Shown here: piece by piece, positions 28,065 to 62,319 of the stretch | Layout of the letters: every line of letters starts with the position of its first letter | How positions within the stretch are numbered: position 1 is the stretch's first letter | Source: Bacteroidia bacterium | GTDB lineage: Bacteria; Bacteroidota; Bacteroidia; Flavobacteriales; Flavobacteriaceae | DNA: 64,000 nt | Direction of reading: 5' to 3' | Assembly (NCBI GenBank): GCA_030430385.1 | Contig: JAUIFO010000010.1 | Span: forward strand, 62,001-126,000 | Made by a program: the position numbers and the translations under genes | Notes under the pieces: generated by a model | Databases searched by the model: none | Told to the model about the DNA's origin: nothing | The model's input: the letters and a program-made list of their open reading frames with translations, nothing else

Positions 28065-29347
28065 TGTCTGATACCATTTTAAAAGTAGAACATATTAGCA
28101 AACAGTATAGACTTGGTCTGGTAGGAACTGGAACGTTGAGTCATGACCTTAATAGGTGGTGGCATAAAGTGAGAGGTAAAGATGACCCTTACTTAAAAGT
28201 TGGAGCTGTTAATGATAGAAGCACTGTTTCTAATAGTAATTATGTTTGGGCACTTAGAGATATAAATTTTTCAGTTCAAAAAGGAGAAGTTTTAGGAATA
28301 ATTGGTAAGAATGGTGCAGGTAAGTCTACGTTGTTAAAAATACTCTCTAGAGTAACAAGCCCAACTGTAGGTGAGATTAAAACTAAAGGTAGAATAGCCT
28401 CACTTTTGGAGGTTGGTACTGGATTTCATCCAGAGTTAACTGGAAAGGAAAATATTTACCTAAATGGTGCAATCCTTGGAATGACCAAAAGCGAAATTAA
28501 AAAGAAGGAGAAAGAAATTATTGACTTTTCAGGATGTTTACGCTACATTAATACACCTGTTAAGCGTTATAGTAGTGGAATGCGTGTACGCTTGGCTTTT
28601 GCAGTAGCTGCTTTTTTAGAGCCAGATATTTTAGTGGTAGATGAGGTCTTGGCTGTTGGAGATGCTGAGTTTCAGAAAAAAGCTATCGGCAAAATGCAAG
28701 ACATATCTAAAGGCGATGGTCGTACTGTACTATTTGTAAGTCATAACATGGCTGCTGTTCAAGATTTGTGTACGAGAGTTATAATTTTAGAGCATGGCAT
28801 AAAAACATTTGAAGGTGACGTTTCTAAAGGAATTAATACATACTTGAGTAATAATAATACCTACGATGCTTTTGTAGATTTTGAAGTTAAAGATGAGCTA
28901 GAAACTTCAAGATTTTCACGCTTTGAAATTAGAAATTCAAAGGATGAATTATCATCTGGTTTTCACTCAGGTGAACCTATCACGTTTTCAATTTCAATTA
29001 AGGTGAAAAATACCTTAAGAAATCCTGTGTTTAGTTTAAGAATAAGTGATCTTAATCATGTCAACATCATTACTTGGAGAAGTAATGATTATATTGAAGA
29101 ACCACTTCGTAAAAACCAATCTGAAGACTTTCAAATAAACCTCACTACCAAAGATTTATATTTACTAAATGGTGTTTATTCTGTGTCTATTGGATTGGCT
29201 GATGGAACTGAAATGCTCCAAGCAGAAATTAAATTTATAGAATTTGAAGTGCATCCTTCTAAGCCTAACAACGATTTTCATTCTATTACCAAAGAAAAAT
29301 CTACCAATAGTTTAATATATTCAATTGCAAATTGGGATGTTTCTTAA
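28064..29347 (+). CDS. polysaccharide ABC transporter ATPase with C-terminal glycan-binding domain (Wzt-like)
   Basis: From ATG 28064 the protein is 427 residues. The ABC domain covers about residues 1-260, with Walker A GKNGAGKS at 81-88, signature YSSGMRVRLAFAVA and Walker B ILVVDEVLAVGD. A beta-rich C-terminal domain (~275-427, FSRFEIRNSKDELSSGFHSGEPITF) matches the O-antigen-binding domain of Wzt proteins that recognise the non-reducing end of the finished chain. An N-terminal insertion of about 35 residues (HDLNRWWHKVRGKDDPYLK) is common in this Bacteroidota subgroup. Such a domain implies export of a complete, end-marked polymer. Confidence 0.92.
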   Translation: MSDTILKVEHISKQYRLGLVGTGTLSHDLNRWWHKVRGKDDPYLKVGAVNDRSTVSNSNYVWALRDINFSVQKGEVLGIIGKNGAGKSTLLKILSRVTSPTVGEIKTKGRIASLLEVGTGFHPELTGKENIYLNGAILGMTKSEIKKKEKEIIDFSGCLRYINTPVKRYSSGMRVRLAFAVAAFLEPDILVVDEVLAVGDAEFQKKAIGKMQDISKGDGRTVLFVSHNMAAVQDLCTRVIILEHGIKTFEGDVSKGINTYLSNNNTYDAFVDFEVKDELETSRFSRFEIRNSKDELSSGFHSGEPITFSISIKVKNTLRNPVFSLRISDLNHVNIITWRSNDYIEEPLRKNQSEDFQINLTTKDLYLLNGVYSVSIGLADGTEMLQAEIKFIEFEVHPSKPNNDFHSITKEKSTNSLIYSIANWDVS

Positions 29348-38517: not shown

Positions 38518-39906
38518 ATGAACCACATTCAAACAGAAATATTACCTTCTAAGCAGCGTTTTGCTAAAATTAAAGGACCTCATGAACTTCATAAGAAGGC
38601 AATAGCAATCTATGTTGCTACAGGTTTTTTTTTAGAAGCAGATACGTTTTTTAAAGATGAAGTGTGTTTACTGCCTGCTCATAATCATACCATTGATGAT
38701 GACGGATTTCTAGTTGAAAGTAAGCCTTGGTTTGAATGGTATTATGAACCGAGAGCGTTGTCATTTTCACAAGCCTTGGATGAATACCAATCTCTTTTAA
38801 AACAGATTATAGCTGAGCAATCAGGTAATTCTAAAGTGATTTTACCTTTATCTGGAGGTTTAGACAGTAGGAGTCAAGCCTTGATTTTAAAAGATTTAGA
38901 CAACGACGTTAGTGCTTATAGCTATTCTTTTAAAAATGGATTTCCCGAACATAAAATAAGTGAAAAGGTGGCTAAGGTATGCGGATTTGACTTTCAAAAG
39001 TTTGTAATTCCTGAAGGCTATTTATGGGATAAAATTGAAACGCTGGGTGAAATTAACGGCTGCTATTCTGAATTTACACATCCAAGACAAATGGCAGTGC
39101 TAGATGATTTTAAAGCTATGGAAGGTGAGTTTTCTCTTGGGCATTGGGGAGATGTATTGTTTGATAGAGGTGTGCCTGAAGGAACCAATCATGCAGATGT
39201 GATTCCGCTTTTGTATAAAAAAATGATTAAAAAAGATGGTTTAGAACTGGCGAAACAACTTTGGACCCATTGGGAGTTGGAAGGCGATTTTGAGTCATAT
39301 TTAACCCAACGCTTAAAAGATTTGCTTTCAAAAATCAAGATCGATAATATTAGTGCTAAGGTAAGGGCTTTTAAAACAACACATTGGGCGCATCGATGGA
39401 CTTCTACTAACTTATCTGTTTTTGAAAATGCACATCCAATTCATTTGCCTTTTTATGATAACCGAATGTGTGAGTTTATTTGTACTATTCCTGAAGACTA
39501 TCTGGCAGATCGAAAATTACAGCTCGCACATTTAAAATCTAATGATGAATTGGCATCCATTATGTGGCACGAACAAAAACCGTTTAATTTAAAAACCTAT
39601 AGATTTAATAAAGTGCCATATAACCTACCATATCGAATCGTCAATAAACTTAAAAGAGAGTTCAATGGTGTTTTTGGTAGTCCGTACATTCAAAGAAATT
39701 TTGAGTTACAGTTTTTAGGAGCTGAAAATGATGCGCAATTAAAAGCGTATTTGTTTAGAGAGGCTTATTTTGACTTTATTCCTGAAGCACTAGTCAAAGC
39801 AACTTACAATAAATTTAAGGACGACGATTATGTGAAATACTCACATGCAGTAAGTATGTTACTTACACTCTCTGTTTGGCATAAATTGTTTTACAAAACC
39901 AATTGA
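38518..39906 (+). CDS. asparagine synthase-like protein lacking the glutaminase nucleophile
   Basis: The 462-residue protein has the ATP-pyrophosphatase domain (LPLSGGLDSRSQALIL, PP-loop SGGLDS at 112-117) and the later catalytic region SLGHWGDVLFDRG and ENAHPIHLPFYDNRMCEFICTIPEDY. The first ~100 residues correspond only to the end of the glutaminase domain, without Cys2, RGPD or NGEIYN. It cannot use glutamine by itself, so it must use free ammonia, another acceptor such as an amine, or get ammonia from the full-length paralogue ~80 bases upstream. The downstream gene overlaps it (TGATG). Confidence 0.75.
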   Translation: MNHIQTEILPSKQRFAKIKGPHELHKKAIAIYVATGFFLEADTFFKDEVCLLPAHNHTIDDDGFLVESKPWFEWYYEPRALSFSQALDEYQSLLKQIIAEQSGNSKVILPLSGGLDSRSQALILKDLDNDVSAYSYSFKNGFPEHKISEKVAKVCGFDFQKFVIPEGYLWDKIETLGEINGCYSEFTHPRQMAVLDDFKAMEGEFSLGHWGDVLFDRGVPEGTNHADVIPLLYKKMIKKDGLELAKQLWTHWELEGDFESYLTQRLKDLLSKIKIDNISAKVRAFKTTHWAHRWTSTNLSVFENAHPIHLPFYDNRMCEFICTIPEDYLADRKLQLAHLKSNDELASIMWHEQKPFNLKTYRFNKVPYNLPYRIVNKLKREFNGVFGSPYIQRNFELQFLGAENDAQLKAYLFREAYFDFIPEALVKATYNKFKDDDYVKYSHAVSMLLTLSVWHKLFYKTN

Positions 39907-43425: not shown

Positions 43426-44862
43426 ATGCTCTTTAATTCCATAGATTTTGCATTGTTTTTACCAATTGTATTTATACTTTATTGGCTTGTCTTTCAGCGT
43501 CATTTAAAGTTGCAAAATGCTTTTTTGGTCGTCGTGAGTTACTTCTTTTATGGCTGTTGGGATTGGCGTTTTTTATCACTGATATTATTTAGCACTATTG
43601 TAGATTACACAATTGGATTATACCTTAATAAAACTTCAGGCAATCGAGAACGGAAAGTGTTACTGTGGACAAGCGTTACAGTGAATATTGGACTTTTGAT
43701 GTTCTTTAAATATTTTAATTTCTTCGTAGATAGCTTTGTAGACGTGTTTACTTTTTTTGGATATGAAATTCAACCCACAAGTCTCAATATCATATTACCT
43801 GTAGGTATAAGTTTTTATACCTTTCAAACGCTTAGTTACACCATAGATGTATACAACAGAAAACTTGATCCAACTAAAGACTTTTTGAAATTTGCTGCGT
43901 TTGTTTCATTTTTTCCTCAACTAGTAGCGGGACCAATTGAACGTGCTAAACGGTTTTTACCACAATTTGATGTAAAACGAAAGTTTGATATCAATGAAGC
44001 TACAGATGGAATGCGTCAGATTTTATGGGGTTTGTTCAAAAAAGTGATCATTGCCGATAATTGTGCTGGTTATGTGACAACCATTTTTGATAACTATGAT
44101 ACAATGCCTGCGAGTTCGTTGTGGTTGGCTTTGGTGTTGTTTTCTTTTCAAATTTATGGTGATTTTTCTGGGTATAGTGATATAGGTATTGGTGTGTCAC
44201 GATTACTAGGATTTAAGCTTATGCAAAACTTTGCGTTTCCTTTTTTCTCAAGAGATATTGCTGAGTTTTGGAGACGCTGGCATATTTCTTTAACAACGTG
44301 GTTTAGAGACTACATTTATATTCCTCTTGGTGGATCGAGAGGATCAAAATTGTTACAAATTCGAAATGTATTCATAATATTTTTAGTGAGTGGCTTTTGG
44401 CATGGTGCAAATTGGACCTTTATTATATGGGGACTTTTCTACGCCTTGCTTTTTTTACCCTTGCTACTCAGTAAAAAAAACAGAGAACATACAGAAATAG
44501 TTGCGATTGATAAAGCCTTACCTAGCTTTAGAGATTTTCTTAAAATAGGATTAACATTTTTTTATACTTGCATAGCTTGGGTGTTTTTTAGATCCAATAC
44601 AGTTACTGATTCCTATATGTATTTTAAACGCTTAGTAAATAGCTCTATATTAGAAGCTCCACTTAAAGTTGATACAAGTTTATATGTGTTTTTGGTACTG
44701 TTTATTATAATGGAGTGGATGGGAAGACGACAACAATATGCTATAGAGACGATGTTTAACAACTATCCTTTAGTAGTAAGATGGGGATGCTATTATATTA
44801 TTGCGATGATTATATTTTTATATGGAGGTGAAGCGCAAACATTTATTTATTTTCAGTTTTAG
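43426..44862 (+). CDS. MBOAT-family O-acyltransferase (AlgI-like), copy 1
   Basis: The 478-residue polytopic inner-membrane protein belongs to the AlgI/DltB group of the MBOAT family. It has the conserved WDWRFLSLILFSTIVDYTIGL, PQLVAGPIERAKRFLPQF, EFWRRWHISLTTWFRDYIYIPLGGSRG and the catalytic His in SGFWHGANWTF. It passes acetyl or similar groups across the membrane to the periplasmic glycan. Two bases behind it is an SGNH-like partner gene. A second MBOAT at 45801 is highly similar, especially in the first 60 residues. Confidence 0.93.
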   Translation: MLFNSIDFALFLPIVFILYWLVFQRHLKLQNAFLVVVSYFFYGCWDWRFLSLILFSTIVDYTIGLYLNKTSGNRERKVLLWTSVTVNIGLLMFFKYFNFFVDSFVDVFTFFGYEIQPTSLNIILPVGISFYTFQTLSYTIDVYNRKLDPTKDFLKFAAFVSFFPQLVAGPIERAKRFLPQFDVKRKFDINEATDGMRQILWGLFKKVIIADNCAGYVTTIFDNYDTMPASSLWLALVLFSFQIYGDFSGYSDIGIGVSRLLGFKLMQNFAFPFFSRDIAEFWRRWHISLTTWFRDYIYIPLGGSRGSKLLQIRNVFIIFLVSGFWHGANWTFIIWGLFYALLFLPLLLSKKNREHTEIVAIDKALPSFRDFLKIGLTFFYTCIAWVFFRSNTVTDSYMYFKRLVNSSILEAPLKVDTSLYVFLVLFIIMEWMGRRQQYAIETMFNNYPLVVRWGCYYIIAMIIFLYGGEAQTFIYFQF

Positions 44863-44864
44863 TT

Positions 44865-45764
44865 ATGAAACAATTCATACTTAAAATAGTCTTGTTTTCA
44901 GGTTTAATCCTTATATCGTTTATGTATCTACATTCAAAGCGAGCAAATTTGTTTGTTGAGAAGTTCACATCGTTAAATAAAAATTATGATATTATAAATC
45001 TTGGAAATTCTCATGGCGGAAATATTCTTTACGATAGTCTAAATGGCAAGTCGTTTCAAAGAGCTGGGAATACAATTTATTACGATCTTCAGAATTACAA
45101 GTTCTTAGCTCCGAATTTAAATGAAAATGCTGTTGTTATTTTACCAGTATCCTACAATTCTTTCGGTCTTGATGAAAACAGAACAGATTACGCCAATCCA
45201 GATGCTTTTGTAAATAGTTTCTATATGTACTTACCCAAATCTGATATTTATAATTACTCATTCAAAAAGCATATAGGAGTGTATCTAAATACCGTTAAAG
45301 TTAATTTCGAAAGTGTTATTGATGAACGTTTTTTTCATGAGGCTATTCCTATTGATAGTACAGTAACAATAGCAGAAAAAATGGAACACCATTCTATTGG
45401 ACGTGCAAAAACTCATATGAAAATGGCGAGCTATTCTGATCCCGAAAAGAATATTAAATATTTAGGGGAACTTATAGAAAAAATAATAGAGAATAACCAT
45501 AAACCAGTAATTGTTACGATGCCATTTACAGATAACTATAACGAAAAGTTTAGCGAATCTTGGTTAAATACCTATTACTACAATCATGTAAGAGAAGTTG
45601 TGGAGAAATATGATGTTACTTATCTTGACTATTCAAATGATTTGCGATTTAGCTTAAACGATTCCTTGTTTGCAAATTCAGATCATTTAAATTTAAAAGG
45701 AAAGAAGATTTTTAGTAAAATTCTCTTTGAAGATTTAAGGAAATATAAGCTCTTGAAACAATGA
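44865..45764 (+). CDS. membrane-anchored SGNH-like acyltransferase partner, copy 1
   Basis: The 299-residue protein has an N-terminal anchor (LKIVLFSGLILISFMYL) and a periplasmic domain resembling the DltD/AlgX/AlgJ partners of MBOAT proteins. Block I reads NLGNSHGGN (Ser in GNS instead of GDS) and the C-terminal block reads ANSDHLNLKGKKIF, where the usual DxxH is NSDH. It would complete transfer of an acyl group to the polysaccharide. It is paired with the MBOAT gene two bases upstream. Confidence 0.72.
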   Translation: MKQFILKIVLFSGLILISFMYLHSKRANLFVEKFTSLNKNYDIINLGNSHGGNILYDSLNGKSFQRAGNTIYYDLQNYKFLAPNLNENAVVILPVSYNSFGLDENRTDYANPDAFVNSFYMYLPKSDIYNYSFKKHIGVYLNTVKVNFESVIDERFFHEAIPIDSTVTIAEKMEHHSIGRAKTHMKMASYSDPEKNIKYLGELIEKIIENNHKPVIVTMPFTDNYNEKFSESWLNTYYYNHVREVVEKYDVTYLDYSNDLRFSLNDSLFANSDHLNLKGKKIFSKILFEDLRKYKLLKQ

Positions 45765-45800
45765 ATATTGTAATTTTAGATTCAAAATTAGATTAGATCT

Positions 45801-47225
45801 ATGCTCTTTAACTCCATAGACTTTGCAGTATTTTTACCCTTAGTATTTTTGGTTTATTGGTGTCTTCAGCGTCATTTAAAATCTCAAAACACCTTTCTTG
45901 TACTTGCAAGTTATATCTTTTATGGTTGGTGGGATTGGCGATTTTTATCTCTTATTTTATTTAGTACTGTTGTTGATTATACGATTGGGTTAAGACTTAA
46001 AAGTCAAGACGGTTTAAAACAACGTAAAGCATTGCTTTGGACGAGTATTATTGTGAATATTGGTCTGTTGATGTTTTTTAAATACTTCAATTTTTTTGTA
46101 GATAGTTTTGTAACAGCCTTTACATTTTTTGGTGTAGACATTCAAGCAAGAACCTTAGACATTATTTTGCCTGTAGGCATTAGCTTTTATACGTTTCAAA
46201 CGTTGAGTTATACCATTGATGTCTATAAAGGAAAGTTGAAACCTACTACAGATTTTATACAATTTGCTGCATTTGTTTCATTTTTTCCTCAATTGGTAGC
46301 AGGTCCAATTGAACGAGCTAAACACTTATTGCCTCAGTTTGAAATTAAGCGTCAATTTGATAGTACATACGCTATGAGTGGTATCTATCTTATTATTTGG
46401 GGTTTGTTTAAAAAAATGGTCATTGCTGATAATTGCGCTTTTTTTGTCAATCAAATTTTTGAGAATTCAGCTCATTTCTCATCTTTAGAATTGTTTTTAG
46501 GCGCAGTGCTCTTCGGATTACAAATTTATGGTGACTTTTCTGGGTATTCTGATATCGCTATTGGTGTAGCACGATTATTTGGATTTTCATTAATGGTCAA
46601 TTTCTCGTTTCCTTACTTTTCAAGAAATATTGCAGAATTTTGGCGACGTTGGCATATCTCTTTATCGACATGGTTTCGGGATTATATTTATATTCCACTT
46701 GGTGGCTCAAGAGGAAAACGCGCTTATCAAATTAGAAACGTTTTAATTGTTTTTTTAGTTAGCGGATTCTGGCATGGTGCTAATTGGACTTTCATAGCTT
46801 GGGGAGCTATACATGCATTATTGTTTTTGCCATTATTGATTTTTAAACGAAATCGAACCTATGTCGAAACATTCAAAATTAATATGTCACAAGTGCCGCG
46901 AATTCTATTAACCTTTGTTGTTGTGACCATTGCTTGGGTATTCTTTAGAGCCGATTCCATTCAGCATGCATCAAACTTTATTTTAGATATGTTGTCTTTC
47001 AATGGAATCACTATAGATGTATTTTATAAAACAGCTAAATCGCAATTGTTTGCGTTAATGATTCTAACAAGTGTTTTGGTGATGTTTTGGTTGGAATGGT
47101 CTTCAGTTCAAAAGGAAAATAAAGAAGTGATATTATCGCCATACAAAGCCATTTTTATTGCAATACTTATTACTTTTATGGGCGTTTTCAAAAACCCATC
47201 CGATTTTATTTATTTTCAGTTTTAA
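45801..47225 (+). CDS. MBOAT-family O-acyltransferase (AlgI-like), copy 2
   Basis: The 474-residue paralogue of the MBOAT at 43426 has the same blocks: MLFNSIDFAVFLPLVF, WDWRFLSLILFST, ERAKHLLPQFEIKRQF, EFWRRWHISLSTWFRDYIYIPLGGSRG and SGFWHGANWTFIAWG with the catalytic His. Overall similarity is strong through the catalytic core and drops in the last ~110 residues, where the membrane helices diverge. It is followed, with a one-base overlap, by its own SGNH-like partner. It arose probably by tandem duplication of the pair. Confidence 0.93.
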   Translation: MLFNSIDFAVFLPLVFLVYWCLQRHLKSQNTFLVLASYIFYGWWDWRFLSLILFSTVVDYTIGLRLKSQDGLKQRKALLWTSIIVNIGLLMFFKYFNFFVDSFVTAFTFFGVDIQARTLDIILPVGISFYTFQTLSYTIDVYKGKLKPTTDFIQFAAFVSFFPQLVAGPIERAKHLLPQFEIKRQFDSTYAMSGIYLIIWGLFKKMVIADNCAFFVNQIFENSAHFSSLELFLGAVLFGLQIYGDFSGYSDIAIGVARLFGFSLMVNFSFPYFSRNIAEFWRRWHISLSTWFRDYIYIPLGGSRGKRAYQIRNVLIVFLVSGFWHGANWTFIAWGAIHALLFLPLLIFKRNRTYVETFKINMSQVPRILLTFVVVTIAWVFFRADSIQHASNFILDMLSFNGITIDVFYKTAKSQLFALMILTSVLVMFWLEWSSVQKENKEVILSPYKAIFIAILITFMGVFKNPSDFIYFQF

Positions 47226-48133
47226 TGATGAAGGTATTTTTAAAAAAACTTAGTGTATTAGGCTTACTCTTTTTAGGGCTTACCTGTATACTGTCTTTTG
47301 CTAGTCTTCATGTTTTAAGAGGTTCTGGGTTTTATAAATCTTCGTTTTTAGTCAATCAAGTGCCTGAAGATCGTTTTGATTATATTGTCATTGGAGCTTC
47401 AGATGCTTTAACCACACTAAACACTAAAACAATTGATTCAATGTTGTCTGTTGAAGGTGTGAATTTAGCAATGGATGACACGTCTTTTCCCAGTCATTAT
47501 TTGATGCTACAACATTTTTTATCTGAAGGCAAACAAACTAAATATTGTGTTTTGGCAGCGTCGTATTCGGCTTTTGATTTTGAAGGAGCACCACTTAGCA
47601 ATAACGATTACAGGTTTTTAATGTATGGTAATAGAGCTTATGTTTCAGACTACTACAAGCAGTTTTCTGGAAAGACAGCCAATATTTTGTATTATTCAAA
47701 ATGGTTGCCAGTTTTAGGTGTGTCATATTACAATACAGAAATATTTTATCCATCTTTGATTAGCATAGTGAATTCTAATAAAAGGAATCGCTTTGATGAT
47801 AAAGGAAATTATACGTATCCTGTAATCAATAAGCCTAGTCGAATGATCGATTTCAAAACGGCTGAAGTCGCATTTAAGAATGCCTATGTTCAAAAAATAA
47901 AGGCCTTATGTGACAAGAATAACATTAAATTGCTATGCTATATTACGCCAAGTGACTCAAAAAATGCGATTCCAAAATCAGTTGATTTTGACATAATTAA
48001 TCACAGTAATGCAGTTAATGATCATAAATACTTTTATGATGAAACACATGTAAATAGCATAGGTAGAGAGATTTGTAGTATTGCATTTGCTAAAAATATC
48101 GTACAACAAGGCATTGATTTGAAGAACAGATAG
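47225..48133 (+). CDS. membrane-anchored SGNH-like acyltransferase partner, copy 2
   Basis: The 302-residue protein has an N-terminal hydrophobic anchor (SVLGLLFLGLTCILSFASL). Its block I-like segment is YIVIGASDALTTLN and its C-terminal block YDETHVNSIGREIC has a canonical D-x2-H. It is only distantly similar to the copy-1 partner at 44865, unlike the two MBOATs, so acyl donor or target may differ. It starts at ATG 47225 (or 47228), overlapping the MBOAT stop by one base. Confidence 0.72.
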   Translation: MMKVFLKKLSVLGLLFLGLTCILSFASLHVLRGSGFYKSSFLVNQVPEDRFDYIVIGASDALTTLNTKTIDSMLSVEGVNLAMDDTSFPSHYLMLQHFLSEGKQTKYCVLAASYSAFDFEGAPLSNNDYRFLMYGNRAYVSDYYKQFSGKTANILYYSKWLPVLGVSYYNTEIFYPSLISIVNSNKRNRFDDKGNYTYPVINKPSRMIDFKTAEVAFKNAYVQKIKALCDKNNIKLLCYITPSDSKNAIPKSVDFDIINHSNAVNDHKYFYDETHVNSIGREICSIAFAKNIVQQGIDLKNR

Positions 48134-53176: not shown

Positions 53177-54004
53177 ATGAATTTAAAAGGAATACTAAAA
53201 AGAATAGCAGGTAAAAACAATAACACATCTTATGTTGACCGCACCTTATGTGGTGTAAATTTAAGAGTGCTTCCTAATACAACCAGAGTAAAAGAAGATC
53301 AGGATGACTGTTGGTGGTTTTACTTAACAAAGCATCATCAAACTATTTATGATGTAGGTTGTAATGCTGGTTATTCTGCTATAATTGCACTAATTCAAGA
53401 TCCTCAAAAAAAGGTGATTCTTGTTGATCCAAATCCTAATGCATTAAAAAAAGCAGCTCAAAATTTAATTGAGAACGGACTTGGAAATAATGCGCAATAT
53501 GTAGCTGCATTTGTGAGTAATGAATTAGATAACAAAATAAAGTTCTATACCATTGGAGCAGGAGCTGCAGGAAGTATGCACGCATCTCATGCCAAAACTG
53601 CTGCTGATGTGAATTCATTCATGGAAGTGCAAACCATTACCTTAGACTATATGTATGCCTTTTATAAGGTTAAACCAGATTTGGTTAAGATTGATGTGGA
53701 AGGTGCTGAAACCTTAGTGATGCAATCTGCCAAAACGCTTGCCAATGAAACAAAATGCACGTTCTTTATTGAAATGCATAATGTTGAAGGCATAGGAATG
53801 GAAGCTGCTGCGCAATCAATGTTAGATTGGTGTGACGAAATGGGTTATAAAACATGGTATCCAACTACAGGAAAGGCTTTGACGTCTGCCGAAGAGATTA
53901 AAAATAGAGGTAAATGTCATTTACTTTTACTACCAAAAGATAAAGCGTATCCTAGTTATCTTGAAGGCATTGCGTCACATGCACCTTTACCAAACCATGT
54001 GTAA
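53177..54004 (+). CDS. FkbM-family methyltransferase
   Basis: The 275-residue protein has the FkbM signature: motif I IYDVGCNAGYSAIIAL and VILVDPNPNALKKAAQNL, then KIDVEGAETLVMQSA and FFIEMHN. FkbM-type enzymes O-methylate sugars or polyketides. The stop overlaps the ATG of the GT2 gene by one base (TAATG). Together with the two other methyltransferases it suggests that several sites of the glycan are methylated. Confidence 0.86.
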   Translation: MNLKGILKRIAGKNNNTSYVDRTLCGVNLRVLPNTTRVKEDQDDCWWFYLTKHHQTIYDVGCNAGYSAIIALIQDPQKKVILVDPNPNALKKAAQNLIENGLGNNAQYVAAFVSNELDNKIKFYTIGAGAAGSMHASHAKTAADVNSFMEVQTITLDYMYAFYKVKPDLVKIDVEGAETLVMQSAKTLANETKCTFFIEMHNVEGIGMEAAAQSMLDWCDEMGYKTWYPTTGKALTSAEEIKNRGKCHLLLLPKDKAYPSYLEGIASHAPLPNHV

Positions 54005-55332
54005 TGCCATTTGTATTTTTAAAATATTTACAATCCACTCATTATTTTCAACGCTTTACCAAAGCAGGTTACTCCATATTTCCTAGAATTGAAGAATTAC
54101 CTGATTCAATTTTAGAGCAACTTGAAATTGATAAACAGTACAAGTCTCAGGATGCTATCGATTATGATAGGTCTTGGCAAGCTATTCAAAAAGGTTACAT
54201 TGGTGAGGCTAACACCTATCAAGGTTTCAATACAGTTACTGTAGAAGATAACTATAGATTTATTCGAAAGAACTTTCACAGTGCTTGGGTTTTTTATGTT
54301 TTGATTTTGCGATTGCTATCATTTAAAAATCCAATTAAGGAGATTTCAGGATGGCTTAAAACACGTCAAACGAAGCGTCAGCATTTTGGTAAAACGACTT
54401 TGTTTGATGACGATTTTAATAAGTTTCAGTCAAAACTTGTTGCATCAAATCCCAGAGTTAGTGTCGTTATTCCAACCTTAAATCGCTATGATTTTTTGAA
54501 AGATGTTTTACATGATTTGGAGGCTCAGGATTATAAAAATTTTGAAGTGATTGTCGTTGATCAATCTGAACCTTTTGATAAAGCCTTTTATCAGGATTTT
54601 AATTTGGATTTTAAAATAGTACAGCAAGAAGAAAAAGCCCTATGGCTTGCTAGAAATACAGCTGTTAAAAAGTCGGAAGGCACTTTTATTGCATTGTCTG
54701 AAGATGATGTTAGAATCGAACCAGATTGGGTCAGCACACATCTTAAGTGCTTAGATTTTTTTAATGCTGAAGTGTCTGCTGGTGTGTTTTATCCTGAAGG
54801 AAAACAGATTCCAGAAGACCGTTCTTTTTTTAGTCTTGCCTCACAATTTGCTACTGGAAATGCAATGCTGTATAAAGACGTATTTAAAAAAGTAGGCTTA
54901 TTTGATAGACAGTTTGAAAAGCAACGTATGGGAGATGGCGAATTCGGAATGCGAGTTTATCTCAACAATATTAGAAGTATCTCCAATCCTCTCGCATCTT
55001 GTATTGATGTTAAAGCGCATACAGGAGGACTTCGTGAAATGGGAAGTTGGGATGCTTTCAGACCTTCTAATTTTTTTGCACCTAGACCAATTCCTAGTGT
55101 ATTGTACTTTTTTAGACGTTACTTTGGTAGGAAAGCTTCAATTTTGGCGTTGTTAAGAACAGTCCCAATCTCAATGTTTCCTTATCAATTCAAAAAAAAC
55201 AAGCCTTTATTATTACTGGGTTCGGTTATTACCTTATTACTATTTCCAATTGTCTTTTGTCAAGTTGTTGTCTCTTGGAATAGAGCTTCAAAAAAAATAA
55301 AAGCTGGTCCGTTAATTGAAATTTTAGAGTGA
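54004..55332 (+). CDS. GT2-family glycosyltransferase with N-terminal extension and C-terminal membrane segments
   Basis: The 442-residue protein has the GT-A domain at about 150-350: VSVVIPTLNRYDFLKDVLHDL, FEVIVVDQSEP, WLARNTAVKKSEGTFIALSEDDVRIEPDW with the DD(V) metal site, and GLFDRQFEKQRMGDGEFGMRVYL. The first ~145 residues (IEELPDSILEQLEIDKQYKSQDAIDYDRSW) are unusual and not part of GT2. The last ~45 residues include a strong membrane segment (LLLGSVITLLLFPIVFCQVV). The downstream gene overlaps by four bases. Confidence 0.82.
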   Translation: MPFVFLKYLQSTHYFQRFTKAGYSIFPRIEELPDSILEQLEIDKQYKSQDAIDYDRSWQAIQKGYIGEANTYQGFNTVTVEDNYRFIRKNFHSAWVFYVLILRLLSFKNPIKEISGWLKTRQTKRQHFGKTTLFDDDFNKFQSKLVASNPRVSVVIPTLNRYDFLKDVLHDLEAQDYKNFEVIVVDQSEPFDKAFYQDFNLDFKIVQQEEKALWLARNTAVKKSEGTFIALSEDDVRIEPDWVSTHLKCLDFFNAEVSAGVFYPEGKQIPEDRSFFSLASQFATGNAMLYKDVFKKVGLFDRQFEKQRMGDGEFGMRVYLNNIRSISNPLASCIDVKAHTGGLREMGSWDAFRPSNFFAPRPIPSVLYFFRRYFGRKASILALLRTVPISMFPYQFKKNKPLLLLGSVITLLLFPIVFCQVVVSWNRASKKIKAGPLIEILE

Positions 55333-56432
55333 GCACAAAACAGAAACATATTGTCATAGTGTCTTCTGAATTTCCTCCGCAACCAGGAGGTATTGGAAAC
55401 CACGCATTTAATTTAGCCTCATATCTTTCTAAGGAACATTATCGTGTTAGTGTTATTGCAGATCAGCGATCAATTAATGGTGATGAAGAACGTGATTTTG
55501 ATGCAAAGCAAATGTTTAATGTGTTTAGGATTAAGCGATATAATATGCGTTTTATAATGTATGTTAAACGGATTTTGTTAACGCATAAAACCATAAAAAA
55601 GGCAGATTATGTGATTGCTACTGGCAAGTTTTCGCTTTGGAATATTGCTGCCTTGAGCTATGTGCATAAGATTAAAACTCTAGCTGTAATTCATGGTACC
55701 GAAGTTAATTTTAAATCAGTTCTTTTAAGAAGATCTATCGATTTTGCTTTAAAAAAAATACAGCATATTGTAGCAGTATCCAGCTATACGAAAGCATTAA
55801 TTTCACATTTAGATCTTGATACTACAGTAATTCCTAATGGAATTGATACCAATGAATGGAATGCTGAAGGCATTGCAAAAGCAGAATTAAAAGGAACTCC
55901 AATATTAACCACAGTAGGACGTGTTAGCTCGCGAAAAGGTCAGTTAAATGTGATTAAACAATTACCAGATCTAGTTAAAGTATTTCCTGAAATTCACTAC
56001 CATTGTGTTGGTATTCCAACTGAAGCAGACGATTTTATCAATATTGCAAAGCAACTTAATGTTGAACACCATATTACCTTTCATGGCAGTGTTGCTCAAA
56101 ATGAATTAAAAGCCATGCTTTTAGGAACCGATATTTTTGTGATGCTCAGTTCTGAAAGTAAAACTGGCGATGTTGAAGGTTTTGGTATTGCCATATTAGA
56201 AGCTAATGTTTTGGGGATTCCAAGTATTGGATCTAAAGGTTGCGGAATTGAAGATGCTATTGAAGATCAAAAATCAGGAATTTTAATTGATTTAAATAAC
56301 TCAGAAGCTTTTATTAATGCGATCAAGGTGATCAATAATAATCGTATCGCATTTCAAACTGAAGCTAAACAATGGGCAAAACAACACGATTGGTCAACCA
56401 TTATTAAACAATACATCAAGTTGTTAGACTAA
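55329..56432 (+). CDS. GT4-family glycosyltransferase
   Basis: The 367-residue GT-B protein starts at GTG 55329 (GTGA overlap). Motifs are VIVSSEFPPQPGGIGNHAFNLASYL, TTVIPNGIDTNEWN, TTVGRVSSRKGQLNVIKQLPDL, ITFHGSVAQNELKAMLLGTDIFVMLSSES, and DVEGFGIAILEANVLGIPSIG (E-x7-E). It acts in the cytoplasm and is transcribed with the transferases on both sides. Confidence 0.88.
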   Translation: MSTKQKHIVIVSSEFPPQPGGIGNHAFNLASYLSKEHYRVSVIADQRSINGDEERDFDAKQMFNVFRIKRYNMRFIMYVKRILLTHKTIKKADYVIATGKFSLWNIAALSYVHKIKTLAVIHGTEVNFKSVLLRRSIDFALKKIQHIVAVSSYTKALISHLDLDTTVIPNGIDTNEWNAEGIAKAELKGTPILTTVGRVSSRKGQLNVIKQLPDLVKVFPEIHYHCVGIPTEADDFINIAKQLNVEHHITFHGSVAQNELKAMLLGTDIFVMLSSESKTGDVEGFGIAILEANVLGIPSIGSKGCGIEDAIEDQKSGILIDLNNSEAFINAIKVINNNRIAFQTEAKQWAKQHDWSTIIKQYIKLLD

Positions 56433-56433
56433 A

Positions 56434-57564
56434 ATGAGAACACTTACAATTATTTCACATACTGAACATTATACCAATCCAGACGGCACAATTGTAGGAT
56501 TGGGTTCTACAGTAACTGAAATTAATCATTTACTCGACGTGTTTGATGAGATCATCCATGTTGCCATGCTTCACAAATCAGCACCACCTTCTGGAAGTAT
56601 AGGCTATATATCTAACAAGATCACTTTTGTGGCTATACCAGCATTGGGTGGTCAAACACTCGGTAGTAAGTTGTCTATCATCTGGAAAATGCCTTCAGTA
56701 TTAAGTACTGTTAAAAGGGAAGTCGCAAAGAGCGATTATTTTCAATTTAGAGCTCCTACAGGAATAGGAGTATTTGTGATTCCATACTTAATGCTATTTT
56801 CTTCTAAAAAAGGATGGTTTAAATATGCTGGAAATTGGAAGCAAGCATACGCACCTTTAGCGTATAGGTTTCAGAAATGGATGCTCTTAAAACAAAAACG
56901 AAAGGTTACTATAAATGGGTTTTGGGATGATCAACCTGCACATTGCTTGTCGTTTGAAAATCCTTGTTTAACTACTCAAGAATTAGAACAAGGGAAGTCC
57001 ATAATTGAAAAGAAAACAATTACACCTCAAGGTGTTAGTTTTTGTTTTGTTGGTCGTGTAGAAGAGGCCAAAGGCATCGGTTTGTTAATTGAGGCCTTTA
57101 AATCGCTATCTGAAGTTGAACAATCTAAAGTTGAAGCCATTCATATTGTAGGCGATGGTAAGCATATTGCAGATTATAAAACAAAGACTGAAGCAAGCCA
57201 ACTTAATTTTGTCTTTCATGGATTTCTGTCTCGTGAACAAGTCCATCATATTTACAAACAGTCTCATGCAATTGTATTGCCTTCAGCTTCAGAAGGATTT
57301 CCGAAAGTCATATCAGAAGCTATGAACTATGGATGTGTTCCAATAGTTTCAGATATTTCTTCTATATCGCACTATATTGAAGATGAGGTTAATGGATTTT
57401 TGGTTTATCCTATTACCACTGAAAATCTAAAAGCAAACATTAAAAAAATGATTCAGATGGAAAATTCAAAATATAAAACAATGATTAATTCAAAACAGCA
57501 GTCGATTTCAAAGTTTAGTTATGCCTATTACAATAGTAGAATTAAAGATGATATTTTATCGTAA
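56434..57564 (+). CDS. GT4-family glycosyltransferase
   Basis: The 376-residue protein begins with an unusual N-terminal acceptor domain (RTLTIISHTEHYTNPDGTIVGLGSTVTEINHL). Its donor half has FCFVGRVEEAKGIGLLIEAFKSL, IHIVGDG, HGFLSREQVHHIYKQSHAIVLPSASEGFPKVISEAMNYGCVPIV (E-x7-E), and ends in a basic tail. It lies one base after the preceding transferase. A 130-base AT-rich gap follows, with a 12-A run at 57643-57654 and no clear promoter or terminator. Confidence 0.84.
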   Translation: MRTLTIISHTEHYTNPDGTIVGLGSTVTEINHLLDVFDEIIHVAMLHKSAPPSGSIGYISNKITFVAIPALGGQTLGSKLSIIWKMPSVLSTVKREVAKSDYFQFRAPTGIGVFVIPYLMLFSSKKGWFKYAGNWKQAYAPLAYRFQKWMLLKQKRKVTINGFWDDQPAHCLSFENPCLTTQELEQGKSIIEKKTITPQGVSFCFVGRVEEAKGIGLLIEAFKSLSEVEQSKVEAIHIVGDGKHIADYKTKTEASQLNFVFHGFLSREQVHHIYKQSHAIVLPSASEGFPKVISEAMNYGCVPIVSDISSISHYIEDEVNGFLVYPITTENLKANIKKMIQMENSKYKTMINSKQQSISKFSYAYYNSRIKDDILS

Positions 57565-57694
57565 TCTATCATTTTTCAGACCATAGAAATATACTGAAAT
57601 AGCTTCGAATATTTTGCAAATCAATATTTTATTAGGTCGTACAAAAAAAAAAAATTACATTTAACGCCTCGTGCTATTAAACACTGTTTTTTGA

Positions 57695-58498
57695 ATGATT
57701 TTTAAGAAAATTTCTTGGTTTTTTAAACGCCATCCTTTTTTGTATGTGGCTCGATTTAAATTACTGTCTAAAAACTCCAGTGTTAGTGATATAGAATCCT
57801 TTTCATACAATACTGTAAATAAGAAAAAAGACATTCCTAAGTATTTTTACACAGTAAATGATACCATTTTTAAAGGAAATCCTTTCACGTCATCATTAGA
57901 GAATGTTAAACATCTTAGTGTATGGCTTCAAAATAATATCAAAGGCGGACCAGGTTTGAGTGAATCTTCAGAGAACGCTCTTAAAATCATGCTGTCAGGT
58001 AAAGGTGGTGTATGCAGTGATATGGCACAGATTTTCAATAATTTTTGTGTGATTAATGATGTTAAAGTTCGTGAATGGGGAAATACAAGAGCTCCTTTTG
58101 ATAGAGCATATGGCGGCCATTCCTTTAATGAAGTTTTTATAGATAAGCTTAATAAGTGGGTTTTAATTGATGTGTCGAGTAGTTTGGTTTTTTATCATAA
58201 TGAAACATTACTGTCTGTGGTGGAGTTGTATGAGCTTTTACGAAGTGGTGAAAAAATATCATTCAAAACATTCAATTCTACTAAAGACTTAGATGAGAAA
58301 AATGTTGAAAAGAACTACCTTAATCCAGATACTATTCCGTTTTTAATATGTAACTATTCAAACAAATTTTATGATTCGTGTTTGAAATTTTTCAGACCAT
58401 ATGTCCCAGTTTTTTTAGTTCATTTTGTTATTTTCGTCTTAGGTAAAAGTTATCATTACAAGTTTCCTTTAGATAATTATAAGAAAATATTTACTTAG
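57695..58498 (+). CDS. transglutaminase-like protein inside the polysaccharide locus
   Basis: The 267-residue protein has a transglutaminase/protease-like core. C107 lies in GKGGVCSDMAQIFNNF, H142 in YGGHSFNEVFI and D159 in WVLIDVSSS, the Cys-His-Asp triad with normal spacing (35 and 17 residues). There is no signal peptide (N-terminus MIFKKISWFFKRHPFLYV). A C-terminal hydrophobic segment (YVPVFLVHFVIFVLGKSYHY) may anchor it in the membrane. Members cut, cross-link or acyl-transfer at amide bonds. The substrate here is unknown, and such a gene is rare in glycan loci. Confidence 0.75.
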   Translation: MIFKKISWFFKRHPFLYVARFKLLSKNSSVSDIESFSYNTVNKKKDIPKYFYTVNDTIFKGNPFTSSLENVKHLSVWLQNNIKGGPGLSESSENALKIMLSGKGGVCSDMAQIFNNFCVINDVKVREWGNTRAPFDRAYGGHSFNEVFIDKLNKWVLIDVSSSLVFYHNETLLSVVELYELLRSGEKISFKTFNSTKDLDEKNVEKNYLNPDTIPFLICNYSNKFYDSCLKFFRPYVPVFLVHFVIFVLGKSYHYKFPLDNYKKIFT

Positions 58499-58544: not shown

Positions 58545-59909
58545 TTGAAAACAAATCTAACCTATATAAGTGCTGTTGTATTACATATTTTTATAGGTAT
58601 AATTGTTTATTACAATGAAGCGCTAGCTAAGGTCTATTTTGGTGTTATTATAGTGTATTTTCTCTCTAGAATTGTACTTAGTTCAGCCGATTCAAAAACC
58701 TTTGAAGTATTAAAAGCAGCTTCCTATATTGTTGGTGCTGAGGTGTTTCTTAGGATGACCAGAGGATCAATTTCTTATGAGGCAGGTAAATATTTTGTAA
58801 TTATCTTCATCTTAATAGGAATGTTTTATAAAGGCATTTCAGGAAAAGCATATCCTTACTTCTTGTATTTAATGTTGCTTGTGCCTTCAATATTTGTGGC
58901 CTCTACGACCTTAAGTTTTGATGCCAACTTTAGAACTAATATTGCCTTTGTACTTAGTGGTCCACTATGCTTAGGTGTCGCTGCTTTGTTTTGTTATGAT
59001 AAGAAGGTGACCAAAGACCAAATCAATAAGTTTTTATTGTTTATGTTGTTGCCACTTATATCACATACAGCATATATTTTTTTTTATAATCCTTCAGTTC
59101 GCGATGTATTATCAGGAACAGGATCAAATCGATCAGCATCTGGAGGATGGGGAGCAAATCAAGTGTCTACAGTATTAGGTCTTGGCATGTTTATTGTCGC
59201 TGTCAGATTATTTACTAAATCACCATCAATAGGTCATAAAATTATAAATTTTGTGATTTTTTCTGCTATTGGCTACAGAGCCATTGTAACATTTAGTAGA
59301 GGTGGTGTTATTACTGCCTTAATGTCAATAGTTGCTTTTTTGATTTTGTATTATGCAACAGCTACTAAAAAGAAACGATCAGAAATCTTATCCATTTTTA
59401 TGATTTTTTGTTTTTGTTTGAGTGTAACTTGGATTATAAGTTCTACGCAAACTGATGGCTATATTGATTTGAGGTACACAAATAAAGATCATTTAGGTCG
59501 AGAAAAAACCGATATTACAACTGGTAGAGGAGATTTGTTTAAAGAAGAACTTGAAGGTTTTATATCTAATCCTTTTTTTGGGATTGGTTCTAGTCGTGCA
59601 AAAGATCAAAGAATTGAAGTTGAAGGCCAAGGTGTAACCTCTCACAGTGAAGTGAGTCGACTCTTAGCCGAACATGGTATGTTTGGAGTTACCATTCTCG
59701 TTATTTTATTATTCAAACCGTTTGATTTCAGATCAAGAAACCGAAAGAATTATTTTTTCTATGCCTTTTTAGTATTTTGGTTTGCGACCATCAATCACTC
59801 ATCAATGCGAATTGCTGCACCAGCATTCATTTATGCCTTGGCGCTTTTAAATGTAAAACATGAAGAACATCCTGTACATAGGAAACAACTTAAGCAACAA
59901 GACGTCTAA
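58545..59909 (+). CDS. O-antigen ligase/polymerase family membrane protein (WaaL/Wzy-like)
   Basis: The 454-residue protein has about 11-12 membrane helices and a periplasmic loop with the family hallmark FGIGSSRAKDQRIEVEGQGVTSHSEVSRLLAEHGMFG, the H-S-E-like region of PF04932 (Wzy_C). It either ligates finished glycan to a lipid acceptor or polymerises repeat units in the periplasm; the sequence does not separate the two. The start is TTG 58545, the first plausible codon before MKTNLTYISAV. The next gene begins 50 bases inside its end. Confidence 0.85.
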   Translation: MKTNLTYISAVVLHIFIGIIVYYNEALAKVYFGVIIVYFLSRIVLSSADSKTFEVLKAASYIVGAEVFLRMTRGSISYEAGKYFVIIFILIGMFYKGISGKAYPYFLYLMLLVPSIFVASTTLSFDANFRTNIAFVLSGPLCLGVAALFCYDKKVTKDQINKFLLFMLLPLISHTAYIFFYNPSVRDVLSGTGSNRSASGGWGANQVSTVLGLGMFIVAVRLFTKSPSIGHKIINFVIFSAIGYRAIVTFSRGGVITALMSIVAFLILYYATATKKKRSEILSIFMIFCFCLSVTWIISSTQTDGYIDLRYTNKDHLGREKTDITTGRGDLFKEELEGFISNPFFGIGSSRAKDQRIEVEGQGVTSHSEVSRLLAEHGMFGVTILVILLFKPFDFRSRNRKNYFFYAFLVFWFATINHSSMRIAAPAFIYALALLNVKHEEHPVHRKQLKQQDV

Positions 59910-60873
59910 TATTTCTGGAATTAAAGTTTTAAGTGCGTTATTAAAACAAGAAGGGTTTACTATCTATACATCGTCTTCAAAAAACAATAAAGTTTTAAGA
60001 CTTATAGATATGGTATTTACCTGTTTTACAACCTGTAAAAAGGTAGATTACGTGCTCATCGATACCTACAGCACTCAAAATTTTTATTATGCTTTAGTTG
60101 TAAGTCAAATATGTAGATGGTTTAAAACAGATTATATCCCAATTTTACATGGTGGAAAATTGCCTGAACGATTAAAACAAAATCCTCAACTCTGTCATAA
60201 ACTTTTTGCTAATGCCAAGTCGTGTGTAGCGCCTTCCAACTTTTTAAAAAAGGCTTTTGAAAGCTATGGTTATAGTAACATCATTCATATACCTAATACC
60301 ATTCAAATTGAAAATTATAATTTTAAAGAAAGAGATTATGAAAGTTTAAATATACTTTGGGTGAGATCTTTTTCAAAAATTTATAATCCTGAAATGGCTG
60401 TTAGAGTGGTCTATAAATTAAAGCGAAGCTACCCTGAAGTAACTTTGTGTATGGTTGGTCCAGATGCCGATAATAGTAGAGTTCAAGTTGAAGAGTTGGC
60501 TCGCGATTTAGATGTTAATGTGACGTTTACAGGAAAACTTAAAAAAGCAGAATGGATCCGACTTTCCGAAGATTATAATGTATTCATTAATACAACTAAT
60601 TTTGACAATACACCACTTAGTCTTATTGAAGCGATGGCTTTAGGTCTACCTGTGGTTTCTACAAATGTTGGTGGAATTCCTTATTTAATTGAGGATAAAA
60701 AACACGGACTTCTAGTTGCACAAAATGATGTAGATGCAATGGCGAATGCTATTACACATCTAATGGTAAATAAGACCGAAAGACAATTATTAGTTTCTAA
60801 CGCGAGACAAAAGGTTGAGTCTTTTGATTGGAATTCTGTAAAAGATGTTTGGCTTAAATTATTAAGTAGCTAA
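59860..60873 (+). CDS. GT4-family glycosyltransferase
   Basis: The 337-residue protein opens NILYIGNNLSNKTSNISGIKVLSALLK, typical of a Bacteroidota GT4 group, which supports ATG 59860 despite a 50-base overlap with the ligase gene. It then has IIHIPNTIQIENY, ILWVRSFSKIYNPEMAVRVV, VTFTGKLKKAEWIRLSEDYNVFINTTNFDNTPLSLIEAMALGLPVVST (the E-x7-E motif is degenerate at its first Glu) and a final LIEDKKHGLLV. It is cytoplasmic. Confidence 0.87.
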   Translation: MKNILYIGNNLSNKTSNISGIKVLSALLKQEGFTIYTSSSKNNKVLRLIDMVFTCFTTCKKVDYVLIDTYSTQNFYYALVVSQICRWFKTDYIPILHGGKLPERLKQNPQLCHKLFANAKSCVAPSNFLKKAFESYGYSNIIHIPNTIQIENYNFKERDYESLNILWVRSFSKIYNPEMAVRVVYKLKRSYPEVTLCMVGPDADNSRVQVEELARDLDVNVTFTGKLKKAEWIRLSEDYNVFINTTNFDNTPLSLIEAMALGLPVVSTNVGGIPYLIEDKKHGLLVAQNDVDAMANAITHLMVNKTERQLLVSNARQKVESFDWNSVKDVWLKLLSS

Positions 60874-60924: not shown

Positions 60925-62319
60925 ATGGGTAAGAAAAAGGACATACATTTTGAAATATCCGAAAGAAAAGTACTTCTGAGAATATTCGATATTTTATTTG
61001 TATTTATGGGTCTTTATCTTCTTGAACTTGCCTTTTCATTTGATTATTTAACGGTAAATAGTACAAATGGTACAGCATTATTTGTCCTGATTTTATACAT
61101 ATCCATCTTTGGAACCATTTTTGAAATTTACGACCTTCAAAAGTCAAATAAATTAGAAGTCACGTTCAGGAATATTGTTTTTACAGCATCTACAACAGTT
61201 TTGTTTTATTTACTAACACCATTTTTCACACCTTTTTTACCCGAAAACAGACTTCAAATAGTATATTTCTATTTAACGATCATTGTGATGTTGTTCCTTT
61301 GGCGATTAGCCTACACAACGTTTATATCATCGCCTCGTTTTTACAAAAAAGTACTGCTTGTTGGTGAAATCTCTAACGTAGAGAATATCATAAAACCGTT
61401 ACGTGAAACAGATCCAAACTATAAGATTATAGGGTTTATTAATTGCGAACAAGAATCTGATGCACCAATTAAGTTTAAAGGATTAAAAGAGTTTCAACCT
61501 TCAGAGTTAATGAGTGTTATTGAAAAACATAAAATTTCTGAAGTATTAGTAGCAAGTTACGATTCGGAAACCATTACTCCTGAAATTTATCACGATTTGA
61601 TCAATCTGTTAGAGCACGGATTTACAATTCGTGAATATACTCAGGTTTATGAAGAATTAACCTATCGTGTGCCAATTCAATTTGTTGGTAAAGACTTTTA
61701 TAAATATTTTCCCTTTAGTAGAAGCAATCAAAATAAATTATACCTGTTTTTTCACAGACTCATTGATATCTTATTTTCTATAATTGGCCTGGTTGCTGGA
61801 ATATTATTGCTTCCGTTTATTATCATCGGAAACTTAATTGCTAATAGAGGACCATTATTTTATACACAAGAGCGTGTTGGGAAAAATGGAAACACATTCA
61901 ACATTCTCAAACTGCGAAGCATGATTGTTAATGCTGAAAAAGATGGTGTAAAATGGGCTGAAAAAAATGATAAACGTATCACTACTTTTGGAAAATTCTT
62001 GAGAAGAACACGATTGGATGAAATCCCGCAATTCTTCAATGTATTAAAAGGTGATATGAGTATCATTGGTCCACGACCTGAACGACCATTTTTTGTAAAC
62101 GAATTATCACGTGTTATTCCTTTTTATGAAACTAGACATATCATTAAACCAGGATTAACAGGATGGGCTCAGGTAAAAACAAGATATGGTGCTTCAGTAG
62201 ATGATAGTCTTATAAAGCTTCAATATGATCTGTATTACATTAAACACAGAAGTATCTTTCTAGATTTAAATATTATAGTAAAAACCTTAAGTACAATTCT
62301 GTATTATCGTGGTCAGTAG
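60925..62319 (+). CDS. undecaprenyl-phosphate glycosylphosphotransferase, long form (WcaJ-like)
   Basis: The 464-residue protein has four N-terminal membrane helices (~15-120), a central Rossmann-like CoA-binding-type region (VLLVGEISNVENIIKPL), a re-entrant helix (LIDILFSIIGLVAGILLLPFIIIG) and the PF02397 catalytic domain: FYTQERVGKNGNTFNILKLRSM, RLDEIPQFFNVLKGDMSIIGPRPERP and KPGLTGWAQV. It transfers a hexose-1-phosphate, usually glucose or galactose, to undecaprenyl phosphate to start each chain. It closes the locus, seven bases before lnt on the other strand, and is the second initiating enzyme after the short one at 24260. Confidence 0.92.
   Translation: MGKKKDIHFEISERKVLLRIFDILFVFMGLYLLELAFSFDYLTVNSTNGTALFVLILYISIFGTIFEIYDLQKSNKLEVTFRNIVFTASTTVLFYLLTPFFTPFLPENRLQIVYFYLTIIVMLFLWRLAYTTFISSPRFYKKVLLVGEISNVENIIKPLRETDPNYKIIGFINCEQESDAPIKFKGLKEFQPSELMSVIEKHKISEVLVASYDSETITPEIYHDLINLLEHGFTIREYTQVYEELTYRVPIQFVGKDFYKYFPFSRSNQNKLYLFFHRLIDILFSIIGLVAGILLLPFIIIGNLIANRGPLFYTQERVGKNGNTFNILKLRSMIVNAEKDGVKWAEKNDKRITTFGKFLRRTRLDEIPQFFNVLKGDMSIIGPRPERPFFVNELSRVIPFYETRHIIKPGLTGWAQVKTRYGASVDDSLIKLQYDLYYIKHRSIFLDLNIIVKTLSTILYYRGQ

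Follow-up and report, generated by a model that had tools for sequence, protein, structure and literature searches.

A transglutaminase-fold gene co-inherited with an O-antigen ligase/polymerase gene in surface-glycan loci of Flavobacteriaceae

We show that a gene encoding a transglutaminase-fold protein (hereafter TG) is co-inherited with the O-antigen ligase/polymerase (Wzy_C) gene that it adjoins and with the two GT4 glycosyltransferase genes upstream of it, and not with the glycosyltransferase (GT4b) and sugar phosphotransferase (PGT) genes downstream. The gene was found in the window, i.e., the whole 64,000-nucleotide stretch of a Flavobacteriaceae genome that was analyzed here, within a cassette ordered GT2-GT4-GT4-TG-WaaL/Wzy-GT4-PGT (Table 1). 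Given its inheritance with the ligase, TG probably edits a surface sugar rather than carrying out an unrelated job.

Table 1 Position of TG, its cassette, and sugar-related genes of the wider locus in the window.
Feature	Position	Strand	Remarks
TG, transglutaminase-fold protein	57695-58498	+	ORF, ATG start, 267 aa
In-frame TGA	57692-57694	+	Codon immediately 5' of the TG ATG
TG triad codon C107	58013-58015	+	Alignment A1
TG triad codon H142	58118-58120	+	Alignment A1
TG triad codon D159	58169-58171	+	Alignment A1
GT2 glycosyltransferase	54004-55332	+	Cassette; profile match
GT4x, GT4 glycosyltransferase	55329-56432	+	Cassette; profile match
GT4a, GT4 glycosyltransferase	56434-57564	+	Directly upstream of TG; profile match
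Wzy_C (O-antigen ligase/polymerase) protein	58545-59909	+	Pfam Wzy_C; co-inheritance partner of TG
GT4b, GT4 glycosyltransferase	59860-60873	+	Position conserved
PGT, polyprenyl-phosphate sugar phosphotransferase	60925-62319	+	TIGR03025; position conserved
Asparagine-synthase-like protein	38518-39906	+	Glutaminase domain not recognised
Full asparagine synthase/amidotransferase	36619-38436	+	TIGR01536 above cut-off; TIGR03108 359.3, cut-off 816.9
Nucleotide-sugar dehydrogenase	24849-26141	+	TIGR03026; best model TviB (UDP-GlcNAc 6-dehydrogenase)
NDP-sugar epimerase	26143-27123	+	Best model TviC, 319.5 bits, far below cut-off 760

The initial annotation had described a transglutaminase-like enzyme with an intact Cys-His-Asp triad, and this description held: TG matches PF01841 (Transglut_core) at 27.8 bits for a cut-off of 23 (E 3.3e-6, residues 65-159), its sole Pfam family at E ≤ 0.5, and C107, H142, and D159 are invariant in 45/45 sequences of an alignment that includes the window protein (A1), 44 of which match PF01841 individually (E ≤ 0.01). 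Both the invariance of the triad and the family matches are far beyond chance, which rules out a chance open reading frame. The whole genome holds eight PF01841 matches, the other seven in longer frames (337-894 aa). TG matched no NCBIfam family at E ≤ 0.5 and no PDB sequence at E ≤ 1, and no NAT family was among its Pfam or NCBIfam matches (E ≤ 0.5). PF06035, which we take to be the BTLCP (HvyA/LapG-type) profile, was likewise not matched in Pfam at E ≤ 0.5, where PF01841 stood alone. Across these profile searches (Pfam, NCBIfam, PDB), TG thus fell into no housekeeping peptidase family. Candidate roles as a mobile or phage gene and as a known defence gene were rejected, with zero matches in plasmid and phage collections and zero PADLOC matches at E ≤ 1, respectively. 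A generic PF01841-like protein was also seen in genome G014 (L028:1132-1986); the expected catalytic Cys and His are both Ser in the alignment, and it is probably a non-catalytic paralogue.

An AlphaFold2 model of TG built from A1 reached a mean pLDDT of 91.4 and a pTM of 0.89. Foldseek returned five solved chains at E ≤ 0.001, namely 3isr (three chains), Streptococcus TglA, and yeast PNGase, while a pseudomurein endoisopeptidase and NATs came just above this threshold. TM-scores were low throughout, at about 0.28-0.35, including for the best match (3isr: E 7.9e-5, TM about 0.35, 14% identity). In VIA-align, where a Z under 8 may reflect merely a common arrangement, eukaryotic transglutaminases ranked top (TG3: Z 10.0, rmsd 4.5, 177 aligned), ahead of PNGase (Z about 9) and NATs (about 8). 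These comparisons establish a fold of the transglutaminase/papain-like type but not the reaction: transglutaminases, PNGase, NAT, and proteases are generic matches, and at such low TM-scores they do not fix the chemistry of TG.

TG had also been described as lacking a signal peptide and carrying a hydrophobic C-terminal segment. The first point stands, as no signal-like hydrophobic core is visible by inspection in the N-terminus (MIFKKISWFFKRHPFLYVARF), and the in-frame TGA directly before the ATG leaves no room for an upstream extension carrying an overlooked signal peptide. This N-terminus is conserved as KRHPFLY..RF, with a basic, partly amphipathic character (moment 0.61 and net charge +3 over residues 2-11). 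The second point stands in part: a hydrophobic stretch is present in the window protein at about residues 232-250 (best 19-residue Kyte-Doolittle mean 1.8), but does not clearly qualify as a transmembrane anchor. A C-terminal membrane anchor was rejected since some relatives show lower hydrophobicity there (L004, 1.1; L032, best stretch 1.0 and located elsewhere) and residues 239-248 are modelled as a short helix. We infer that TG is cytoplasmic and membrane-associated.

As first described, TG lies between a glycosyltransferase (GT4a) and the ligase/polymerase. The intergenic sequence separating these two genes, GT4a and TG, contains about a dozen consecutive A (approximately 57644-57655). The best solved fold for the Wzy_C protein is the O-antigen ligase WaaL (7tpg; Foldseek E 1.7e-3, probability 1.00, TM about 0.4), obtained with a model that is merely fair (pLDDT 82), and this partner may either ligate or polymerise. 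The amidotransferases that had been called neighbouring do exist (36619 and 38518), but lie about 18-21 kb upstream of TG rather than adjacent to it. The TviB model matches the nucleotide-sugar dehydrogenase at 557.7 bits, just below the cut-off of 592. With TviB-like, TviC-like, and amidotransferase genes all in the locus, amino-uronic acids and uronamides are plausible constituents of its glycan.

The locus also encodes a membrane protein of the ABC-2 type and an ABC ATPase that carries a Wzt C-terminal domain (ABC exporter, 27198-29347). Two initiating sugar-phosphate transferases, one short (24260-24847) and one long (60925-62319), are present in this single locus together with one Wzy_C protein. 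No PF01943 flippase was found on the contig of the window, the nine matches of the genome (seven above cut-off) all being on other contigs, and a MatE-type protein lies at the window start (3-917), far from the cassette. Two MBOAT O-acyltransferases (43426 and 45801; PF03062) are each followed by a gene with no Pfam match (44865 and 47225) that resembles an SGNH-type partner; the span 43426-48133 probably holds two O-acylation systems.

Within Flavobacteriaceae, TG was matched in 28/397 genomes (E ≤ 1e-5), 22 of which carry a full-length TG at ≥50% identity, with Wzy_C adjoining in 22/22. A scan of genome contigs, which reaches close relatives alone, yielded 32 TG loci, and Wzy_C adjoins in each of them (32/32). 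In the genus of the window (23 genomes), 22 genomes have the ligase and 19 have TG, which adjoins the ligase in 19/19; these three sets of TG loci overlap. Most contig-scan loci are titled with genera that we take to be Flavobacteriaceae, and two are titled just Bacteroidia or Bacteroidota bacterium, and a MAG titled Algicola is identical in both TG and ligase to G938, a genome from the window's genus. In the 43 TG-positive loci compared, TG and the ligase are on the same strand and separated by 10-122 nt. The assignment of TG to a glycan locus is therefore upheld, since each close relative examined adjoins the ligase/polymerase and the presence of TG tracks the ligase lineage; the cross-linking, aminoacylation, and uronamide processing proposed initially are candidate activities. 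Wzy_C proteins are much more frequent than TG (193/397 genomes at E ≤ 1e-40).

More distant copies have other surroundings. Four genomes of the family sample hold five copies at 32-41% identity, and no cassette genes other than the copy itself were recognised in the 20 kb around each; two of these genomes (G148 and G331) have a ligase at another site, which in G148 is about 52 kb from the copy and on the same contig. The remaining two of the 28 genomes show a weak partial TG match alone (28-30%). The distant relatives at L064, L065, and L066, from two genera, have 30-33% identity to the window protein in A1; they branch separately and lie outside the cassette. By Pfam labels, the copy in L066 has as neighbours MurB, an aminotransferase, a GT2, an ECF-type sigma factor, and an anti-sigma-K-like protein, and an M20 peptidase adjoins another distant copy. 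Searches of 296 genomes from the order and 296 from the phylum returned two matches each, in the window's genome and in G154, which belongs to the same family; TG was thus not found outside the family in these samples, but since the two samples overlap and all rows shown are from the same family, they test other families poorly. The full cassette has so far been found in one family.

Next, we compared 85 loci with distinct ligases, 43 TG-positive and 42 TG-negative, after dropping six loci with identical ligases. TG-negative loci were the top of the ligase ranking and not a random draw, and each per-gene tree omits loci without a recognised ortholog of that gene. On the ligase tree, two changes of TG state were sufficient (n = 85), for a mean of 28.7 and a minimum of 21 in label shuffles. 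Three changes were needed on both the GT4a tree (n = 58; shuffled mean 13.6, minimum 10) and the GT4x tree (n = 52; 9.3 and 7), compared to 13 on the PGT tree (n = 79; 26.6 and 19) and 14 on the GT4b tree (n = 82; 27.7 and 16). The GT2 tree required eight (n = 54; mean 11.7, minimum 8), i.e., no better than the lowest shuffle. All cassette genes except GT2 thus clustered by TG state to some degree, as is expected from relatedness alone. When considering the 46 six-gene loci (37 TG-positive, 9 TG-negative), changes numbered two for the ligase, three for GT4a, four for GT4x, six for GT4b, seven for GT2, and eight for PGT (shuffled means 8.3-8.5, minima 5-6), and this set separates the cassette genes less sharply than the full gene sets do. 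Pairwise distances gave a similar order across 37 loci: the correlation with TG was 0.77 for GT4x, 0.74 for Wzy, 0.71 for GT4a, 0.62 for GT2, 0.52 for GT4b, and 0.42 for PGT, all above their shuffles. GT4b and PGT are thus exchanged freely between loci despite their conserved position.

TG-positive ligases form distinct lineages. In an IQ-TREE phylogeny of the 85 ligases, one clade was TG-positive in 39/39 loci (support 99) and another in 4/4 (support 100), the latter with the order Wzy>TG>GT4b. In the window's genus, TG was present in 17/17 genomes whose ligase is ≥63% identical to that of the window, and in 2/5 of those with a ligase at 54-57%. These two (G931 and G946) represent a third TG lineage, and were counted as one event because they are nearly identical in both TG and ligase. 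Among the 22 ligase-bearing genomes of the genus, three had been used before (G000, G045, and G267), three match contig loci of the set, and 16 are new; 19 ligases were added, three of them identical or nearly so to existing rows (L229/L030, L230/L059, and L233/L032). On the resulting tree of 104 rows (102 distinct), TG state requires three changes, at least two being forced by well-supported branches, and the main clade is TG-positive in 54/54. A TG tree (65 rows, five distant ones as outgroup), for which the program warned of long branches, recovered groups of 54, 4, and 2 that match the ligase clades with the fewest possible changes. No exchange is seen between the three TG clades and the three ligase clades, although one has the Wzy>TG order. 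Taken together, the matching clades and the exchange of GT4b and PGT indicate that TG and the ligase travel together in three lineages.

Linkage could account for part of this pattern, as GT4a and the ligase flank TG in two of the three lineages. GT4a is kept in 15/42 TG-negative loci, where it comes immediately before the ligase, the two genes overlapping by up to 11 nt or standing up to 100 nt apart. This clean absence of TG, along with the Wzy>TG arrangement, argues for a functional tie.

We also searched for genes associated with TG across 18 TG-positive and 20 TG-negative genomes, using about 33-44 kb of locus from each, some stretches overlapping. No gene in these 18 + 20 genomes separates the two sets as TG does (18 vs 0, by construction). 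A common backbone including the asparagine-synthase-like gene 38518 was found in 18/18 TG-positive and 12/20 TG-negative genomes, and 38518 is present in 2/2 genomes of the third TG lineage. Its presence in all TG-positive genomes of the test is weakly compatible with amide chemistry, and it does not distinguish the two sets, given its presence in the 12 TG-negative genomes. The amidotransferase gene 36619 was detected in 8/18 and 5/20 genomes, respectively. A methyltransferase (50585; 13/18 vs 1/20) and a sulfotransferase (42563; 11/18 vs 1/20) were more frequent alongside TG in raw counts uncorrected for relatedness and multiple tests. An insert of FemAB-like, GNAT-like, and 535-aa genes between GT4a and TG was seen in 5/43 TG-positive and 0/42 TG-negative loci (L033:4587-7737, L037, L039, L040, and L067), followed by a TylF-like methyltransferase gene in three of the five; the FemAB-like profile match was above cut-off, the GNAT-like one weak and below cut-off, and the 535-aa protein had no Pfam match.

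In the main TG-positive clade, the ligase displays five characteristic residues just before a conserved S-H-x-E (S349, A352, Q362, G363, and T365), found in ≥95% of its 39 ligases and ≤7% of the 42 TG-negative ones; a few of the added genus ligases deviate at 362 or 365. The signature scores 0/5 in the second TG-positive lineage, and the third has G363 alone, so that it is not a code for a "TG product". It marks a lineage, perhaps one with a common glycan, and may denote a glycan type across Flavobacteriaceae. Residues convergent between the main (39) and second (4) TG-positive ligase lineages numbered zero at a background of ≤15% and three at ≤30%, while eight TG-negative control clades of 3-4 rows shared 0-2 and 0-5 residues, respectively, i.e., there was no signal. 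The distribution of the five-residue signature counts against the simplest form of the reading favored below.

Based on these observations, we tentatively favor, at somewhat less than an even chance, a role for TG as a cytoplasmic thiol enzyme, associated with the membrane, by which an amide on a lipid-linked repeat unit is made, exchanged, or removed. TG would be a dedicated, non-secreted Cys-His-Asp enzyme of a surface-glycan assembly cassette. Its N-terminal helix, basic and amphipathic, and its hydrophobic C-terminal helix would keep it on the cytoplasmic side of the inner membrane. Its substrate would be the lipid-linked repeat unit built by the adjacent glycosyltransferases: Cys107 would take an acyl group as a thioester, for instance from a uronamide or an N-acyl/aminoacyl amide, and pass it to an amine or to water, after which the edited glycan would be joined by the neighbouring WaaL/Wzy-type enzyme. 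Here we infer the cytoplasmic side, a glycan rather than a protein as substrate, and the amide chemistry. A narrower version, in which TG is a glycan-directed cytoplasmic transamidase exchanging or building an amide on the lipid-linked O-antigen or capsule unit, in step with its matched ligase/polymerase, we regard as possible but doubtful. Against glycan editing by TG stand the chance that physical linkage by itself makes TG follow GT4a and the ligase, the lack of a common loop code among the three ligase lineages, the distant relatives located away from the cassette, and the loci with the same backbone and no TG; the 12/20 TG-negative genomes with these backbone genes, including 38518, indicate that the cassette works without TG.

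The latter two observations would also be expected if TG were a functional enzyme with an unrelated job, e.g., small-peptide hydrolysis, inherited with the flanking cassette genes through linkage; its physical place between GT4a and the ligase in two of the three lineages also speaks for this. We nevertheless consider such passive inheritance unlikely, because in all three lineages, including that with the Wzy>TG order, TG is next to a ligase from one and the same family, no close relative examined is located elsewhere, and GT4a directly precedes the ligase in all 15 (of 42) TG-negative loci that keep it. A rather improbable but slightly better candidate is a TG that acts on a protein, cleaving, deamidating, or cross-linking an assembly component (the ligase, Wzc, or a glycosyltransferase) and thereby controlling the amount or timing of the glycan. 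A protease or modifier of the ligase would also account for the TG-ligase co-inheritance, many proteases and transglutaminases share the fold of TG, and HvyA, the product of a gene in a capsule export locus, limits capsulation in a manner that depends on its Cys-His-Asp triad (PMC4241560). However, HvyA is exported while TG has no visible signal peptide, PF01841 is the only Pfam match of TG at E ≤ 0.5, and a regulator need not track GT4x and GT4a as closely as it tracks the ligase.

TG could also transfer an acyl group from CoA or a carrier thioester to an amino sugar, in the manner of NATs and amide synthases. NATs and geldanamycin amide synthase are among its fold matches, and the FemAB-like/GNAT-like/535-aa insert occurs in TG-positive loci exclusively; yet this insert is missing from 38/43 of them, classical transglutaminases score equal or higher than NATs (Z about 10 vs about 8), and no carrier protein was recognised near TG, making this activity very unlikely. 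If TG is instead the glycan-directed transamidase outlined above, it would represent a thiol-based route for decorating surface polysaccharides. More generally, if TG acts on a glycan, a fold associated with the cross-linking of proteins, proteolysis, and the acylation of small molecules would also serve in surface-polysaccharide building, and one marker gene could predict amide-bearing glycans of marine Flavobacteriaceae.

Among known systems, TG shares the triad and a family match above cut-off with the Transglut_core superfamily (PF01841), and its best Foldseek match is 3isr, a putative cysteine protease of Cytophaga hutchinsonii; the likeness is distant, and the N-terminal KRHPFLY..RF and the C-terminal parts of TG are outside the Pfam match. 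Its partner resembles WaaL O-antigen ligase and Wzy_C proteins in best solved fold and Pfam family. No description of a transglutaminase in a Bacteroidota glycan locus was recognised among the open-licence papers listed; PMC5491218, PMC9491580, PMC2883993, and PMC4551309 have no bearing on TG, nor does the LapG-like protease of PMC5646257. The Wbp/Vim pathway (WbpS, VimE, and VimA), which provides the A-LPS linking sugar of Porphyromonas and Tannerella, offers a likeness in amide/aminoacyl chemistry on amino-uronic sugars of Bacteroidota surface glycans and includes an asparagine-synthase-type amidotransferase, but the sections available describe no transglutaminase for that pathway (PMC7468200). 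The initial annotation had further held that no role is defined for such a gene in capsule loci, and HvyA of Caulobacter crescentus (CCNA_00166) qualifies this. HvyA is a 272-residue BTLCP-family protein with a transglutaminase-like Cys-His-Asp; its gene lies in a capsule locus that also has a polymerase/ligase gene, and its triad is required for its effect on the capsule (PMC4241560). HvyA is secreted and belongs to another transglutaminase-like family: it has a Sec signal and acts in the periplasm as a cell-cycle-controlled restriction factor (PMC4241560), whereas TG has no visible signal peptide, matches another Pfam family, and is placed inside a GT-ligase cassette. HvyA is the closest precedent for TG in a capsule locus.
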